NCBI RefSeq assembly: GCF_963664915.1
Contig: NZ_OY761810.1
Coordinates: 882,661-946,660 of the forward strand
From: an uncultured Caproiciproducens sp.
GTDB lineage: Bacteria; Bacillota; Clostridia; Oscillospirales; Acutalibacteraceae
Direction: 5' to 3'
Length of the DNA stretch: 64,000 bases
Below are positions 8,521 through 43,981 of this stretch, piece by piece. The notes under the pieces are model-generated. The model searched no databases. It saw only the letters and a list, made by a program, of their open reading frames with translations, and had not been told where the DNA came from. Position numbers and translations under genes: made by a program. Numbering within the stretch: position 1 is the first letter of the stretch; every line of letters begins with the position of its first letter.

Positions 8521-8539
8521 AATACAGGGGGATATGCAA

Positions 8540-9496
8540 ATGAATTTTCATGGCAAGGATATCAAAATTTTTGCTGCCAATGCCAATCAGCGTGTAGCAA
8601 AACAGATTTCGGAGTGTTTGGGCCTTCCAATGGGCAAGAGCGATGTGTCGACCTTCAGCGACGGTGAAATTTCTCTTTCGCTTTTTGAATCGGTACGCGG
8701 CTCGGACTGCTTTATCGTTCAGTCCACCTGCGCCCCCGTCAACAACAACCTGATGGAGCTGCTCATTATGATTGACGCGATGAAACGCGCTTCCGCGGCA
8801 CGCATCACCGCAGTCATGCCTTACTTCGGCTACGCGCGTCAGGACCGTAAGGCCAAAGCCCGCGACCCCATTTCAGCGAAGCTCTGCGCCGACCTGATTA
8901 CGACCGCCGGGGCTGACCGTGTGCTGACGATGGACCTGCACGCCCCCCAAATTCAGGGTTTCTTCAATATCCCCGTGGATCATCTTCTCGGCGCGCCGAT
9001 TCTTTCCTCTTTTTTGAAGGAGCGCATCGGTGACGACACCGACAGCTATGTGATTGTTTCCCCCGATCTGGGCTCCGTTACCCGCGCGCGCAATTTCGCG
9101 GCCCGTATCGGCTGCCCTCTCGCAATTGTGGACAAGCGCCGCCAAAAAGCGAACGTGTGCGAGGTCATGAACATCATCGGTGATGTCAAAAACAAAAAGG
9201 TTATTCTTGTCGACGATATGATCGACACTGCGGGAACACTCTGCAACGCCGCCAGCGCGATTATGGAAAAAGGCGCCAAGGAAGTCACTGCCTGTGCAAC
9301 ACACGCCGTCCTTTCCGGCCCGGCAATCGACCGCATCAAGGCAAGCTCCCTCAAGGAACTGGTACTGCTTGATACCGTCCCGCTTGCGCCGGAAAAGCTG
9401 CTTGACAACTTTACCATTCTGCCTGTGGCGCCGCTTTTTGCCGAAGCAATTGAGCGGATTTATGAGGACAAACCTGTTTCCCCCATGTTTGTCTGA
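8540..9496 (+). CDS. prs: Ribose-phosphate pyrophosphokinase
   Basis: Makes PRPP from ribose-5-phosphate and ATP for nucleotide, His and Trp synthesis. It has the catalytic flexible-loop segment YARQDRKAKARDPISAKL, the class I PRPP-binding motif VILVDDMIDTAGTL (near residues 210-225) and the Mg/ATP site region at MDLHAPQIQGFF. Length is 318 residues, as usual. I prefer the ATG at 8540 over 8534 because the GGGGG site (8527-8531) is correctly spaced only for the second. It follows glmU by 19 bases and is probably in the same transcript. Confidence 0.96.
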   Translation: MNFHGKDIKIFAANANQRVAKQISECLGLPMGKSDVSTFSDGEISLSLFESVRGSDCFIVQSTCAPVNNNLMELLIMIDAMKRASAARITAVMPYFGYARQDRKAKARDPISAKLCADLITTAGADRVLTMDLHAPQIQGFFNIPVDHLLGAPILSSFLKERIGDDTDSYVIVSPDLGSVTRARNFAARIGCPLAIVDKRRQKANVCEVMNIIGDVKNKKVILVDDMIDTAGTLCNAASAIMEKGAKEVTACATHAVLSGPAIDRIKASSLKELVLLDTVPLAPEKLLDNFTILPVAPLFAEAIERIYEDKPVSPMFV

Positions 9497-9775: not shown

Positions 9776-10055
9776 GAAACCGGCGCGGGCTAAGTTCTTG
9801 GGGGACCCACCCCCGCCGATTCCTGCCGCAAGGCACAAAAAAACGCCGTACACGGATTCTTCAATCCATATACAACGCCATCAAAGTGCCCGCGGATATT
9901 AAAATCCCCCTCTGTACAAAATTGCAAAGAGGCGGTATAATGATAACCGCAGTGCGCCGATTATTCGGTTGCTTATGGAGGTACGCTCCGTTTGCAGGGG
10001 GCGGGGTGGTGGTACACCCCGTTCCTGTGCTGCACTTTTTATTGTGCCCTACAAA
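9776..10055 (-). ncRNA. Structured non-coding RNA, copy 1
   Basis: A ~275-nt minus-strand RNA gene with no coding potential, homologous to the copy at 29923-30205. Transcription should start near 10052, downstream of TTGCGC-17-TATAAT. The 5' end (10044-10055) pairs with 9826-9836 near the 3' end. Inside are the hairpins CGGGGTG/CACCCCG (within an outer CAGG/CCTG helix), GGAG/CTCC and CCGA-ATAA-TCGG, and a 15-bp stem CGTTGTATATGGATT with AATCCGTGTACGGCG followed by seven T. A terminal CGGCG/CGCCG hairpin (9781-9818) follows. Differences from copy 2 often keep base pairing. It could be a divergent 6S-like or raiA-type RNA or an undescribed family. Covariance-model search would decide. Confidence 0.75.
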
Positions 10056-10058
10056 CAG

Positions 10059-10087
10059 ATTATAGCGCGTTTTTTCCGTCTGCGCAA
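10059..10087 (-). promoter_or_regulatory. Promoter of ncRNA copy 1
   Basis: On the minus strand TTGCGC (10082-10087) and TATAAT (10059-10064) are 17 bases apart. The same arrangement with near-identical spacer (AGACGGAAAAAACGCGC here) stands before copy 2, which supports a real sigma-A promoter. Confidence 0.8.
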
Positions 10088-28007: not shown

Positions 28008-28837
28008 GCGGAAAATTAATGGTGGTGGGCACCCCGATAGGCAATCTTTCCGATTTTTCCCCGCGTGCAATCGAAACGCTGCGCGAAGCCGACTTTATCG
28101 CCGCGGAGGATACGCGGGTTACCGTAAAACTTTTAAACCGTTTTGAGATTAAAAAACCGATGATCAGTTACTTTGAGCACAATAAGCGCGAGCGCGGGCA
28201 GATAATCTGCGAGCGGATTGAAGCGGGCGAAACCTGCGCGCTTGTGTCCGACGCGGGCATGCCCGCCATTTCCGACCCGGGCGAGCTGCTTGTCGCCCAG
28301 TGCGCCGAGCGCGGAATTCAGGTTCTCGTCGTGCCCGGCCCAAGCGCCGTGGTATCCGCTCTGGCGGTCTCGGGACTTCCGACCGGCCGCTTTACATTCG
28401 AGGGCTTCCTGAGCGTCAGCAAAAAGAGCCGCCGCGAGCATCTTGACGAAGTGAAAAATGAATGCCGCACCATGATTTTTTATGAAGCGCCCCACAAGCT
28501 TTCCTCCACATTGACCGACATGCTCGCGGCATGGGGCGACCGCCGCATTGCGCTTGTGCGCGAACTGACCAAAATACACGAGGAGGTCATCCGCACGACC
28601 CTGTCCGAAGCCGCCGCGCACTATACCGACGGCAGCGCGAAAGGGGAATTTGTTTTGGTAATAGAGGGCGCGCCCAAACCGGAGCAAACACAGTTTACGC
28701 TGGAAGACGGCGTTGCCATAGCAAAGGATTTAATGGAAAACGGACTTTCAGCCTCCGATTCCGCTAAACAGGCCGCCGCTGAAACCGGCATTAAAAAAGG
28801 TGAAATCTACAGGGCAATTTTGCAAAAGGCTGAATGA
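28004..28837 (+). CDS. rsmI: 16S rRNA C1402 2'-O-methyltransferase
   Basis: A tetrapyrrole-methylase fold enzyme that methylates the ribose of C1402 in 16S rRNA. It has VVGTPIGNLSDFSPRAIETL, AEDTR, LVSDAGMPAISDPG, and VPGPSAVVSALAVSGLP, all in the usual order, followed by the FEGFL segment. At 277 residues it is full length. It is coupled to trmN6 by ATGA, and the following CAT-like gene starts 23 bases later. Confidence 0.95.
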   Translation: MSGKLMVVGTPIGNLSDFSPRAIETLREADFIAAEDTRVTVKLLNRFEIKKPMISYFEHNKRERGQIICERIEAGETCALVSDAGMPAISDPGELLVAQCAERGIQVLVVPGPSAVVSALAVSGLPTGRFTFEGFLSVSKKSRREHLDEVKNECRTMIFYEAPHKLSSTLTDMLAAWGDRRIALVRELTKIHEEVIRTTLSEAAAHYTDGSAKGEFVLVIEGAPKPEQTQFTLEDGVAIAKDLMENGLSASDSAKQAAAETGIKKGEIYRAILQKAE

Positions 28838-28860
28838 TAAACGAAACGGAGAAGGAAAGT

Positions 28861-29484
28861 ATGGAGTACATTCACTTAGACACCTGGGCTAGAAAAGAGC
28901 ATTATCAATATTTCCACAGTATGGACTATCCAATGTTCAATATCAGTATGAATCTGGACGTGACAAATTTTCTTCGCTTTGTAAGGGAACACCGGCTTTC
29001 CTTCTACTACTCGATGGGATTCGCCGCTACGCAGGCCGCAAATGAGATCCCCGAATTCCGCTGCCGCATACGCGGAGAGCAGGTTGTTCTGCATGACAGG
29101 GTACACCCCTCTTTTACCGACCTTGACAAAGAAAGTGATCTTTTCAAGTGCGTGGGGGTGGACCTTACGGAAGATATTTTCTCCTTTTCTGAAAAGGCGG
29201 CGCAAAAGTCCGCCGCGCAGAAGACGTTTATGGACCCGGAACAGGAGATACGCGACGATCTGATCTATTTCACCTGTATTCCGTGGATTTCGTTCACACA
29301 GGTTACGCACCCGATCACGCTAGGCAGGGATGATTCCATTCCCCGCATTGCATCGGGAAAATATTTTGCATCCGGAGAAAAAACGCTTCTCCCTTTTTCC
29401 ATTCAGGTAAATCACGCGCTGATGGACGGCTTTCACGCGGGAAAATTCGTTGACCGCCTGCAAAAAGGTCTGGACAGCCTGTAA
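28861..29484 (+). CDS. Chloramphenicol acetyltransferase-like protein
   Basis: A 207-residue member of the type A CAT family. It has the typical N-terminal WARKEHYQYFHSM and the active-site motif NHALMDGFHAGKF near residue 185, with the catalytic His and structural DG. The family transfers acetyl groups from acetyl-CoA. Many chromosomal members in Clostridia have unknown natural substrates, so drug resistance cannot be assumed. The start at 28861 follows GGAGAAGG. It ends an operon with trmN6 and rsmI, and base composition does not differ from its neighbours, which argues against recent transfer. Confidence 0.85.
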   Translation: MEYIHLDTWARKEHYQYFHSMDYPMFNISMNLDVTNFLRFVREHRLSFYYSMGFAATQAANEIPEFRCRIRGEQVVLHDRVHPSFTDLDKESDLFKCVGVDLTEDIFSFSEKAAQKSAAQKTFMDPEQEIRDDLIYFTCIPWISFTQVTHPITLGRDDSIPRIASGKYFASGEKTLLPFSIQVNHALMDGFHAGKFVDRLQKGLDSL

Positions 29485-29889: not shown

Positions 29890-29918
29890 TTGCACTGATG
29901 GAAGAAACGCGCTATAAT
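29890..29918 (+). promoter_or_regulatory. Promoter of ncRNA copy 2
   Basis: TTGCAC (29890-29895) and TATAAT (29913-29918) separated by exactly 17 bases. The element and most of the spacer are conserved in copy 1. Confidence 0.8.
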
Positions 29919-29922
29919 TTGA

Positions 29923-30205
29923 CCGTAAGGCACAATAAAAAAGTGCAATGCAGGAACAGGGTGGTGGAACACCCTGCCCCCTGCATACGGAGCCACAACT
30001 CCATAGGCAACTGAATAATCAGCGCATTGCGATTATTATTATACCGCCTCTTACCGTTTTTGTACAGGGGGTATTCTCTTTAATCCGCAGTACTTTTGAT
30101 GACGTTGTATATGGATGAACCATCCGTATACGGCGTTTTTTGTGTCTTACGGCAAAATGGCGGCGGGGCCGAGTCCCCCTTAAACTCCGCCCCGCCGTTT
30201 TCTGT
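29923..30205 (+). ncRNA. Structured non-coding RNA, copy 2
   Basis: Plus-strand copy of the RNA at 9776-10055. P1 pairs CCGTAAGGCAC (29923-29933) with GTGTCTTACGG (30142-30152), 11 pairs with one G-U. Inside lie TGCAGG/CCTGCA enclosing CAGGGTG/CACCCTG, GGAG/CTCC, CTGA-ATAA-TCAG, and a 14-bp stem CGTTGTATATGGAT with ATCCGTATACGGCG followed by six T. A GC-rich hairpin (30161-30197) with TTTTC ends the gene. Compared with copy 1, G-C/A-U and C-G/U-A swaps occur at paired positions, and loops such as ATAA are constant. No reading frame is shared by both copies. Function unknown. Confidence 0.78.
30159..30202 (+). terminator. Terminator of ncRNA copy 2
   Basis: CGGCGGGGC.GAGT pairs with ACTC.GCCCCGCCG, then TTTTC. 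A related GC-rich hairpin stands at the same place in copy 1 (9781-9818). Confidence 0.75.
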
Positions 30206-30363
30206 TAAATATAAAAAAGCCATTGACTCTATTATGAATCAATGGTATAATAATCTTCGACACGTAGATACATACAAATTGCATATTACTACAAATAAAC
30301 TATAACACATTTTTTCGTATTTGTCAATCATTTTTTATAATTTTTTTTAAAGGGGGCTTTTCA

Positions 30364-43785: not shown

Positions 43786-43809
43786 TGATTGTGATCGGTC
43801 AAAAGACCG

Positions 43810-43900
43810 ATTTTCTCCCTCCGCCGGCATTATCCGGATCAGGTCTAGGGTTAAGCATAAAAGCTACTCTCAGCCGAATTTCATCAGCACCCCTGCACGA
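43810..43900 (-). promoter_or_regulatory. TPP riboswitch
   Basis: Read on the minus strand the sequence has all THI-box landmarks: GGGGTGC at the 5' side, GGCTGAGAGTAG, then ACCTGATCCGGATAATGCCGGCG and a closing GGAGGGA that pairs with the 5' part. It controls the thiamine-binding/thiX/thiY/thiZ operon through the terminator at 43754-43785. Confidence 0.95.
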
Positions 43901-43981
43901 ATATTGAATTGGCTATTATTATACATACTTGCTTTCATATTGTCAAATACTTTGTGACAAACATATTTTGTCTGCCACGGA

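Follow-up and report, generated by a model that had tools for sequence, protein, structure and literature searches.

The 64,000-nucleotide stretch of DNA analysed here (the window), from an uncultured Caproiciproducens sp., carries two intergenic copies of one element in opposite orientation. Copy 1 (9781..10087, sense RNA on the minus strand) lies between prs (8534-9496) and pth-mfd (10191 onward), with prs and pth assigned by Pfam, and copy 2 (29890..30204, sense RNA on the plus strand) lies between a CAT-like gene (28834-29484) and the DUF6323/DUF6179 genes (30364 onward). End-to-end alignment of the two gave 78% identity over positions 1-315 of the 316-base query (E 8.9e-63), in agreement with the initial annotation, which had reported two inverted copies aligning over about 300 bases. 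Its description of the element as multicopy holds, but its count of exactly two does not, as the genome (one contig of 3,125,711 bases) carries a third copy outside the window at C1:967288-967521 on the plus strand. No ORF of at least 80 aa, the frame size considered, overlaps either region, which fits the statement that the copies have no common reading frame, and in the tests made neither copy proved to be a known coding gene or IS, the result that had been named as fatal to an RNA reading. The pth-mfd neighbour of copy 1 is common to Caproiciproducens faecalis and its prs neighbour to bacterium MS4, and bacterium MS4 has the same flanking genes on either side of copy 2; because of these matching neighbours, we take both copies to be inherited in place. 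Protein clusters of the nearest ORFs gave no conserved protein neighbour for the copies of the genus. Two further features of the window were observed in passing. A strong promoter-like sequence (TTGACT-17-TATAAT, 11/12, preceded by TG) at 30223-30251, in the interval separating copy 2 from the DUF6323 gene, suggests that the latter is transcribed from a promoter of its own, and a TPP riboswitch match of 57 bits lies at 43799-43904 on the minus strand.

Read from 5' to 3', the sense layout consists of the 5' strand of a closing helix (P1), a helix P2 around the hairpins P3, P4 and P5, a core, a hairpin P7 with a T tract, the 3' strand of P1, and a final hairpin P8. The common TTGCRC-17-TATAAT promoter of the initial annotation was located at both copies, as TTGCGC-17-TATAAT in copy 1 (10059..10087, minus strand, with TTGCGC from 10087 and TATAAT at 10064-10059) and as TTGCAC-17-TATAAT in copy 2 (29890..29918, plus strand, with TTGCAC at 29890 and TATAAT at 29913-29918). 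P1 is a covarying closing helix whose 5' strand begins at the predicted sense start in copy 1 (10042..10052, minus strand) and occupies 29925..29935 (plus strand) in copy 2; its 3' strand lies at 9828..9838 (minus strand) in copy 1 and at 30140..30150 (plus strand) in copy 2, where it takes in the end of the P7 T tract and the bases after it. The 5' domain of copy 2, in which P2 surrounds P3, P4 and P5, spans 29944..30031 (plus strand) and is defined by the covariation of P2-P5. The terminator-like P7 hairpin with its T tract was placed at 9836..9879 (minus strand) in copy 1 and at 30101..30142 (plus strand) in copy 2. The terminal GC-rich hairpin reported earlier is present as P8, but lies outside the closing helix. 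In copy 1 (9781..9818, minus strand) it was recognised from the sequence and does not score as a terminator, and in copy 2 (30159..30204, plus strand; -26.8 kcal/mol) it is followed by a short T tract and is the probable end of the full-length RNA. Since P8 scored as a terminator in only 13/30 near elements and 4/25 distant elements (these groups are described below), a P8 terminator is not general.

The folding energies, -106 kcal/mol for copy 1 (z -7.98) and -98.8 kcal/mol for copy 2 (z -8.84), are far better than those of shuffled sequences, none of which reaches so low a value. The sequence differences that had been read as compensatory, namely CGGGGTG/CACCCCG against CAGGGTG/CACCCTG, CCGA-TCGG against CTGA-TCAG, and a closing helix kept by wobbles, are real. 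Across 25 copies from the genus, 96.6% of the paired cells hold a pair, versus 93.2% in shuffles and at most 49.4% in slid structures, and the percentage of paired cells, the cells changed on both sides and the covariation score all exceed 500 of 500 shuffles; the count of further pair types does not, being lower than in shuffles. In a wider alignment of 56 rows (A5), 92.5% of the cells are paired, changes on both sides occur at 42 of 49 pairs, and the covariation score is 0.330 versus 0.128 for shuffles, in an alignment that was itself fitted to the model and whose 56 rows include 7 that match the antisense strand of loci already present. The suggestion of selection on RNA structure was thereby borne out, as was the expectation that covariation would appear with more homologues. 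P6, a helix that would pair the core with the 3' part and was included in the first covariance model, was dropped in favour of P2, with 76.0% of its cells paired versus 95.3% for P2.

The search of more genomes with covariance models that had been proposed earlier was run and recovered members in the family, order, class and phylum samples. By blastn, 9 of 60 genomes matched, the own genome included, with 7 of 10 other genomes of the genus among them, a 24-base match in another genus not being counted as a member; nine matches came from a single genome (G007), including two partial ones at contig ends. Model R1, built from the 25 genus copies, matches copy 1 at 9821-10058 on the minus strand (223.2 bits) and copy 2 at 29919-30157 on the plus strand (226.7 bits), and retrieved matches in 21/398 family genomes and 15/394 order genomes; the later model R2 did so in 17/391 class genomes and, at E up to 1e-5, in 3/299 phylum genomes, with the own genome counted each time and with the true order and class counts lower because many weak matches are not members. 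Matches weaker than about 1e-6 were trusted only after reading. Nine weak or core-only matches (L070, L072, L073, L139, L140, L142, L143, L145 and L147) were read as ordinary opposite-strand promoters and rejected, and L052, L071, L074 and L174 were likewise not counted as members. Clear members outside the order were found in G812 (E 2.2e-19), G1123 (two elements) and G1342 (E 3.1e-11, outside the class), all of which show the layout on reading, and relatives thus occur in several families of the order, in another order and in another class. A DNA pattern retrieved 57 stretches in named genomes, including Caproiciproducens galactitolivorans, C. faecalis, Caproicibacter fermentans (G244), Faecalispora jeddahensis (G337), Clostridium sporosphaeroides (G201), Angelakisella and uncultured Oscillospiraceae. 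The exact DNA pattern gave no element in viral contigs, and blastn gave no match to plasmids or phages.

Leaving aside one weak G000 match and the matches to the antisense strand of loci already counted, the near copies per genome number 3 in G000, 5 in G002, one of them degenerate, 2 in G277, one of them weak, and 18 in G309 (a genome from the genus of C. fermentans, here called Caproicibacter). Several of the G309 copies near dnaA (L156-L173) sit within long stretches of mosaic, repeated DNA in which no long gene is obvious, and L173 has a tandem repeat of an 82-base unit in 4.8 copies. Four degenerate or truncated elements (L030 at G002:C1:450258-450453, L022, L182 and L183) keep some of the core, P7 and hairpins, are missing other helices, and are possible remnants of lost copies. 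One element (L010, G008:C21) has two N just before the 3' strand of P4, which looks like an assembly join of two repeat copies. In G444, three elements (L067, L077 and L080) keep P3-P5 and the antisense promoter described below with a GC-rich stretch upstream, and no leader start was found for L077 and L080.

The Rfam search that the initial annotation had called for was run on both copies and gave no credible family: against Rfam 15, neither copy matches any family at the gathering score, and the matches at relaxed thresholds are not credible. The two named candidates did not stand. Neither copy matches 6S RNA (RF00013) at E up to 10, and the true 6S RNA of this genome is found at C1:526197-526387, so the doubt that had been voiced about the fit of the layout to 6S RNA was sound. 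Neither copy matches the raiA motif at E up to 10 in the same scans, the raiA model being one we take to be included in Rfam 15. We found no recognisable report of the element in the accessible portions of the open-access full text (including PMC11109978, PMC8632094 and PMC8040213). The element is a real, widespread RNA element that is absent from Rfam 15.

The relatives occur in two genomic contexts. Among distant elements, 18/25 have a ribosome binding site and a co-oriented start within 150 nt downstream, versus 52/500 random positions at the same loci, and among the elements of Caproiciproducens, Caproicibacter and Faecalispora (the near group) a downstream start was found in 1/60, in a count that takes all elements with enough flank, enters L075 twice among the distant ones, and uses a near/distant split defined after the pattern was seen. 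The single near positive (L014) is a GTG frame and is probably spurious. A first comparison of the 25 distant elements with 50 picked near ones, which set aside part of the near group and everything between the groups, had given 0/50 for the near ones, and 16 elements between the two groups gave 0/16. Over all 98 elements, the signal is weak (19, versus 91/980 random positions). The distant elements that lack a start are L130, L127, L098, L119, L062, L063 and L155, with a weaker site visible by eye in L062 and L063. Eight fresh loci gave a downstream start in four, while two run off the contig and two are degenerate and without a start; a ninth fresh stretch (L184) repeats a known locus, and 4 of the 25 distant elements are fresh loci. 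Leucine-rich repeat proteins (BspA-type and others) and copper-amine-oxidase-N and PDZ proteins are among the downstream products, as are an SH3 lipoprotein, an HTH protein and a GGDEF response regulator. By a crude rule, a signal peptide was flagged in 12/18 of the downstream products, with L181 an apparent false positive and the start used for L138 lying upstream of the likely one. No replication initiator was found among the ten products of distant elements that were compared to Pfam, nine showing other domains and one showing none.

The best-conserved stretch of the element is the core, which reads ATTATA-17-TGTACA in the sense direction and is therefore TGTACA-17-TATAAT on the opposite strand. 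In the window this candidate antisense promoter lies at 9913..9941 (plus strand) in copy 1 and at 30038..30066 (minus strand) in copy 2, with 10/12 consensus bases in each, 4/6 of them in the TGTACA -35. Of 95 distinct elements, 89 have a spacer of 17 at their best site; the -10 is TATAAT in 80 and TATACT in 11, and the -35 is TGTACA in 66 and becomes TTGTTT, TTGTAA, TTGACG, TTGTCA, TTGCTA or others in distant members, with the distance kept. No more than 4 mismatches of 12 occur in any of the 95; as 43.6% of mononucleotide shuffles also reach this level (in an earlier count of 98 that entered three loci twice), the argument for an antisense promoter rests on the spacing and the -10. The promoter spacing stays constant in the core while the sequence of the spacer drifts. 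Additionally, the weak model matches in other genomes look by eye like ordinary opposite-strand promoters, which agrees with an antisense promoter in the core. The RNA predicted to start from this site is about 93 nt long in copy 1 (9948..10040, plus strand; -52.3 kcal/mol, z -6.80) and about 95 nt long in copy 2 (29937..30031, minus strand; -49.5 kcal/mol, z -6.37), and in both copies it is predicted to form a closed four-way junction with a U tract at its end.

Where one strand has a G.U pair, the complementary strand has an A.C mismatch, and we used this asymmetry to ask on which strand each helix is kept. In 49 sense rows, P1 and P7 together hold 140 G.U versus 18 A.C, and P2-P5 hold 23 G.U versus 44 A.C, or 40 versus 47 when the outermost P2 pair (17 G.U, 3 A.C), which was set apart, is included. 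The four positions outward of P4 show 73 A.C versus 1 G.U in the sense orientation, which marks a helix kept on the antisense strand only. The folding energies follow the same division. The P2-P5 domain is stabler as antisense RNA in 48/49 rows (-47.6 versus -32.8 kcal/mol as sense RNA), P3 in 45/49, and P4 with five flanking bases on each side in 44/49, the exceptions to the last (L062, L063, L075, L051 and L068) all being distant elements. P7 is stabler as sense RNA in 47/48, and P1 shows a weak sense bias (25 versus 15 of 46). Because the rows are related by descent, we offer no p-values as independent evidence for this strand test. The simplest reading is that the locus encodes two overlapping RNAs, each selected for its structure.

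The sense strand also has an alternative pairing. The 5' arm of P7 is complementary to the 3' strand of P4 and the linker that follows it (UCCAUACACAAC), which lie within the part covered by the antisense RNA. We call this stretch the linker, or candidate antiterminator strand, and place it at 9968..9980 (minus strand) in copy 1 and at 29999..30011 (plus strand) in copy 2 (row L001), where it pairs with the 5' arm of P7; the pairing was tested on relatives including copy 2. In 48 elements, linkers pair better with their own P7 partners than with swapped ones (-13.23 versus -11.91, sd 0.26), and the difference is also seen in the 21 distant elements (-13.41 versus -10.94, sd 0.40), with 0/20,000 permutations as low in either set; L067 and L050 had been excluded beforehand, and L075 was dropped as no hairpin was found in it. 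Examples of such partners are CCAUGCAC with GUGCAUGG in L064, CCUACAC with GUGUAGG in L066, and CAGCAC with GUGCUG in L051. In predicted nascent RNA ending at the 5' arm of P7, the linker-P7 pairing has a probability above 0.5 in 41/48 elements and is not favoured in 7/48, and in the full-length RNA it is above 0.5 in 10/48. Part of the conservation of the linker has another cause, because the linker is also part of the extended P4 helix of the antisense RNA.

We therefore propose, with a probability of about 0.62, that each copy is a dual-strand RNA device for chromosomal antisense-controlled transcription attenuation of the pT181 kind. The proposal draws on two promoter-like sites, strand-specific structure, a coevolving alternative pairing and two genomic contexts, all of them read at the level of sequence. 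The sense RNA would start at P1 and continue through P2-P5 and the core to P7 with its U tract, the P1 3' strand and P8, while the backward-facing core promoter would give a compact antisense RNA of about 95 nt over the 5' domain, ending at its own terminator (P3 with its U tract). During sense synthesis, the linker (the P4 3' strand with AUACACAAC) would capture the 5' arm of P7, and because the linker holds this arm, P7 would be unable to form and the polymerase would read on, yielding a full-length RNA closed by P1. Antisense RNA bound to the 5' domain would block the linker, so that P7 forms and transcription stops early. The antisense RNA of any copy could act on the other copies, and as it could do so, output may be held against copy number. 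That both strands are transcribed, that antisense RNA induces termination and that dosage is controlled are inferences from the features above, as is any role of the free RNA. In many distant lineages, read-through would control a downstream gene, often for a secreted protein, and in the window's lineage the device would be free-standing, with a non-coding RNA as its read-through product. Our most likely guess is that the full-length RNA of the free form is a self-limited non-coding RNA whose level is kept constant by the common antisense RNA, and a trans-acting role in this genus, which the initial annotation had put forward, is possible. Beyond the limits given above, two points speak against an attenuator: if P7 is an efficient stop, most of the RNA would lack P1, since the P1 3' strand follows P7, and the window's lineage has no evident downstream gene to control (a start in 1/60).

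The roles of the two strands could also be reversed, with the antisense RNA being the working trans-acting small RNA, the sense RNA its sponge or decay partner, and the attenuator setting the amount of sponge. The better structure of the 5' domain on the antisense strand (48/49 rows), the closed four-way junction and the 18 free copies in G309 all fit this idea, but the sense-side P1 and P7 are conserved and covary, and the sense RNA leads into genes in many distant lineages, and we consider such a reversal doubtful, if worth keeping in mind. A single free-standing non-coding sense RNA, as the initial annotation had it, in which the promoter-like sequence of the core would be an RNA motif and no promoter, accounts for the sense promoter, the P1 closure and P8 in the window copies and for the strong folding of the sense RNA. 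We regard it as improbable, as the core holds its promoter spacing despite the drift of the spacer and P2-P5 retain their structure on the antisense strand by way of G.U pairs, where the sense RNA has A.C mismatches. The view of the element as a structured multicopy RNA thus survives, and what it missed were the opposite-strand promoter with its antisense RNA, the antiterminator/terminator alternative, and the leader position of many distant relatives.

The position of the elements on the chromosome raises two further ideas. With dnaA located at C1:1037970 in G000, at 307 in G002 and at 304 in G309, 3/3 copies of G000 lie 70-145 kb from dnaA, and copies within 110 kb of it number 4/5 in G002 and 12/18 in G309 (on a contig of 3,308,050 bases); one copy of G277 lies 29 kb away. 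In the three copy-richest genomes with a located dnaA, the elements are thus mostly near this gene. The nine G309 copies (of 18) that are 79-96% identical and lie in long repeated DNA are, for these reasons, not independent of one another. The sole copy of G625 lies about 0.82 Mb from dnaA, and of the two copies of G1123 one is near (141 kb) and one far. Building on the attenuator reading, we tentatively suggest, as something rather unlikely, a gene-free RNA circuit of origin-crowded dual-strand elements with a common antisense pool that evolved from leader switches of surface-protein genes; if true, the level of full-length sense RNA in such a circuit would report or buffer the copy number of the origin, and hence growth rate. 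The same proximity (12/18, 4/5 and 3/3 copies, and the one in G277 at 29 kb) could mean that the element is an origin-proximal DNA or RNA site for chromosome replication or segregation, which we hold to be very improbable given the duplicated G309 copies, the distant copies of G625 and G1123, the ties of leader copies to genes, and gene dosage, which accounts equally for the position. That the element is repeated or mobile DNA of the MITE or REP kind with incidental RNA structure is scarcely credible: it is multicopy and sits within long repeated DNA in G309, but copy 1 (in C. faecalis and MS4) and copy 2 (in MS4) hold orthologous positions, viral contigs (exact pattern), plasmids and phages (blastn) gave no match, and the pairing covaries.

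If the attenuator reading is true, the element would represent a new class of RNA regulator that makes testable predictions: a chromosomal family in Clostridia-type bacteria that occurs both as a leader, often of surface-protein genes, and as a gene-free multicopy RNA, origin-near in some genomes. The count of G.U pairs against A.C mismatches on each strand also provides a simple comparative test for which strand of a structured locus folds, and we would like to caution that RNA screens of one strand may misdescribe dual-strand loci.

Comparison with known systems places the element closest to antisense-controlled plasmid leaders in its logic, and apart from several others. Insertion sequences and MITEs are poor parallels for an element with orthologous positions within the genus and no phage, plasmid or viral match, and as regards a type I toxin-antitoxin system, in which the sense RNA encodes a small toxic peptide, the observation is that neither region contains an ORF of at least 80 aa, the frame size considered. 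Similar to the raiA-motif RNA (ModT), as presented in the available part of PMC11706538, the element is a structured, conserved RNA of Bacillota. Unlike the raiA-motif RNA, neither copy matches Rfam at E up to 10. 6S RNA is free-standing, 200-300 nt long and closed by a helix, all of which resemble the element; however, the element has no match to the 6S model (RF00013), and the genome has its 6S gene elsewhere. With RNAI and RNAII of ColE1 it has in common a short multi-hairpin antisense RNA (here predicted) over the 5' end of a longer RNA, but it comes without a replicon, and P1 and P7 are not known as features of RNAII. Antisense-controlled attenuation is best known from plasmid copy-number control, and in pT181-type plasmids the controlled downstream gene is the replication initiator. 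In contrast, the element is chromosomal, has several copies with no replication gene seen downstream, and is closed from 5' to 3' by a helix (P1) that lies beyond the terminator; in the window's lineage it also lacks an evident downstream target gene (a start in 1/60 near versus 18/25 distant elements). In the pT181 attenuator, as described in the available part of PMC4878617, the 5' part of the terminator stem is captured by an antiterminator, which the antisense RNA in turn sequesters. Like pT181, the element has, at the sequence level, an opposite-strand promoter for a predicted antisense RNA with full complementarity to the 5' part of the sense RNA and, judging from coevolution and predicted nascent folds, an antiterminator strand that would compete for the 5' arm of an intrinsic terminator, and in its leader form it stands upstream of a gene.
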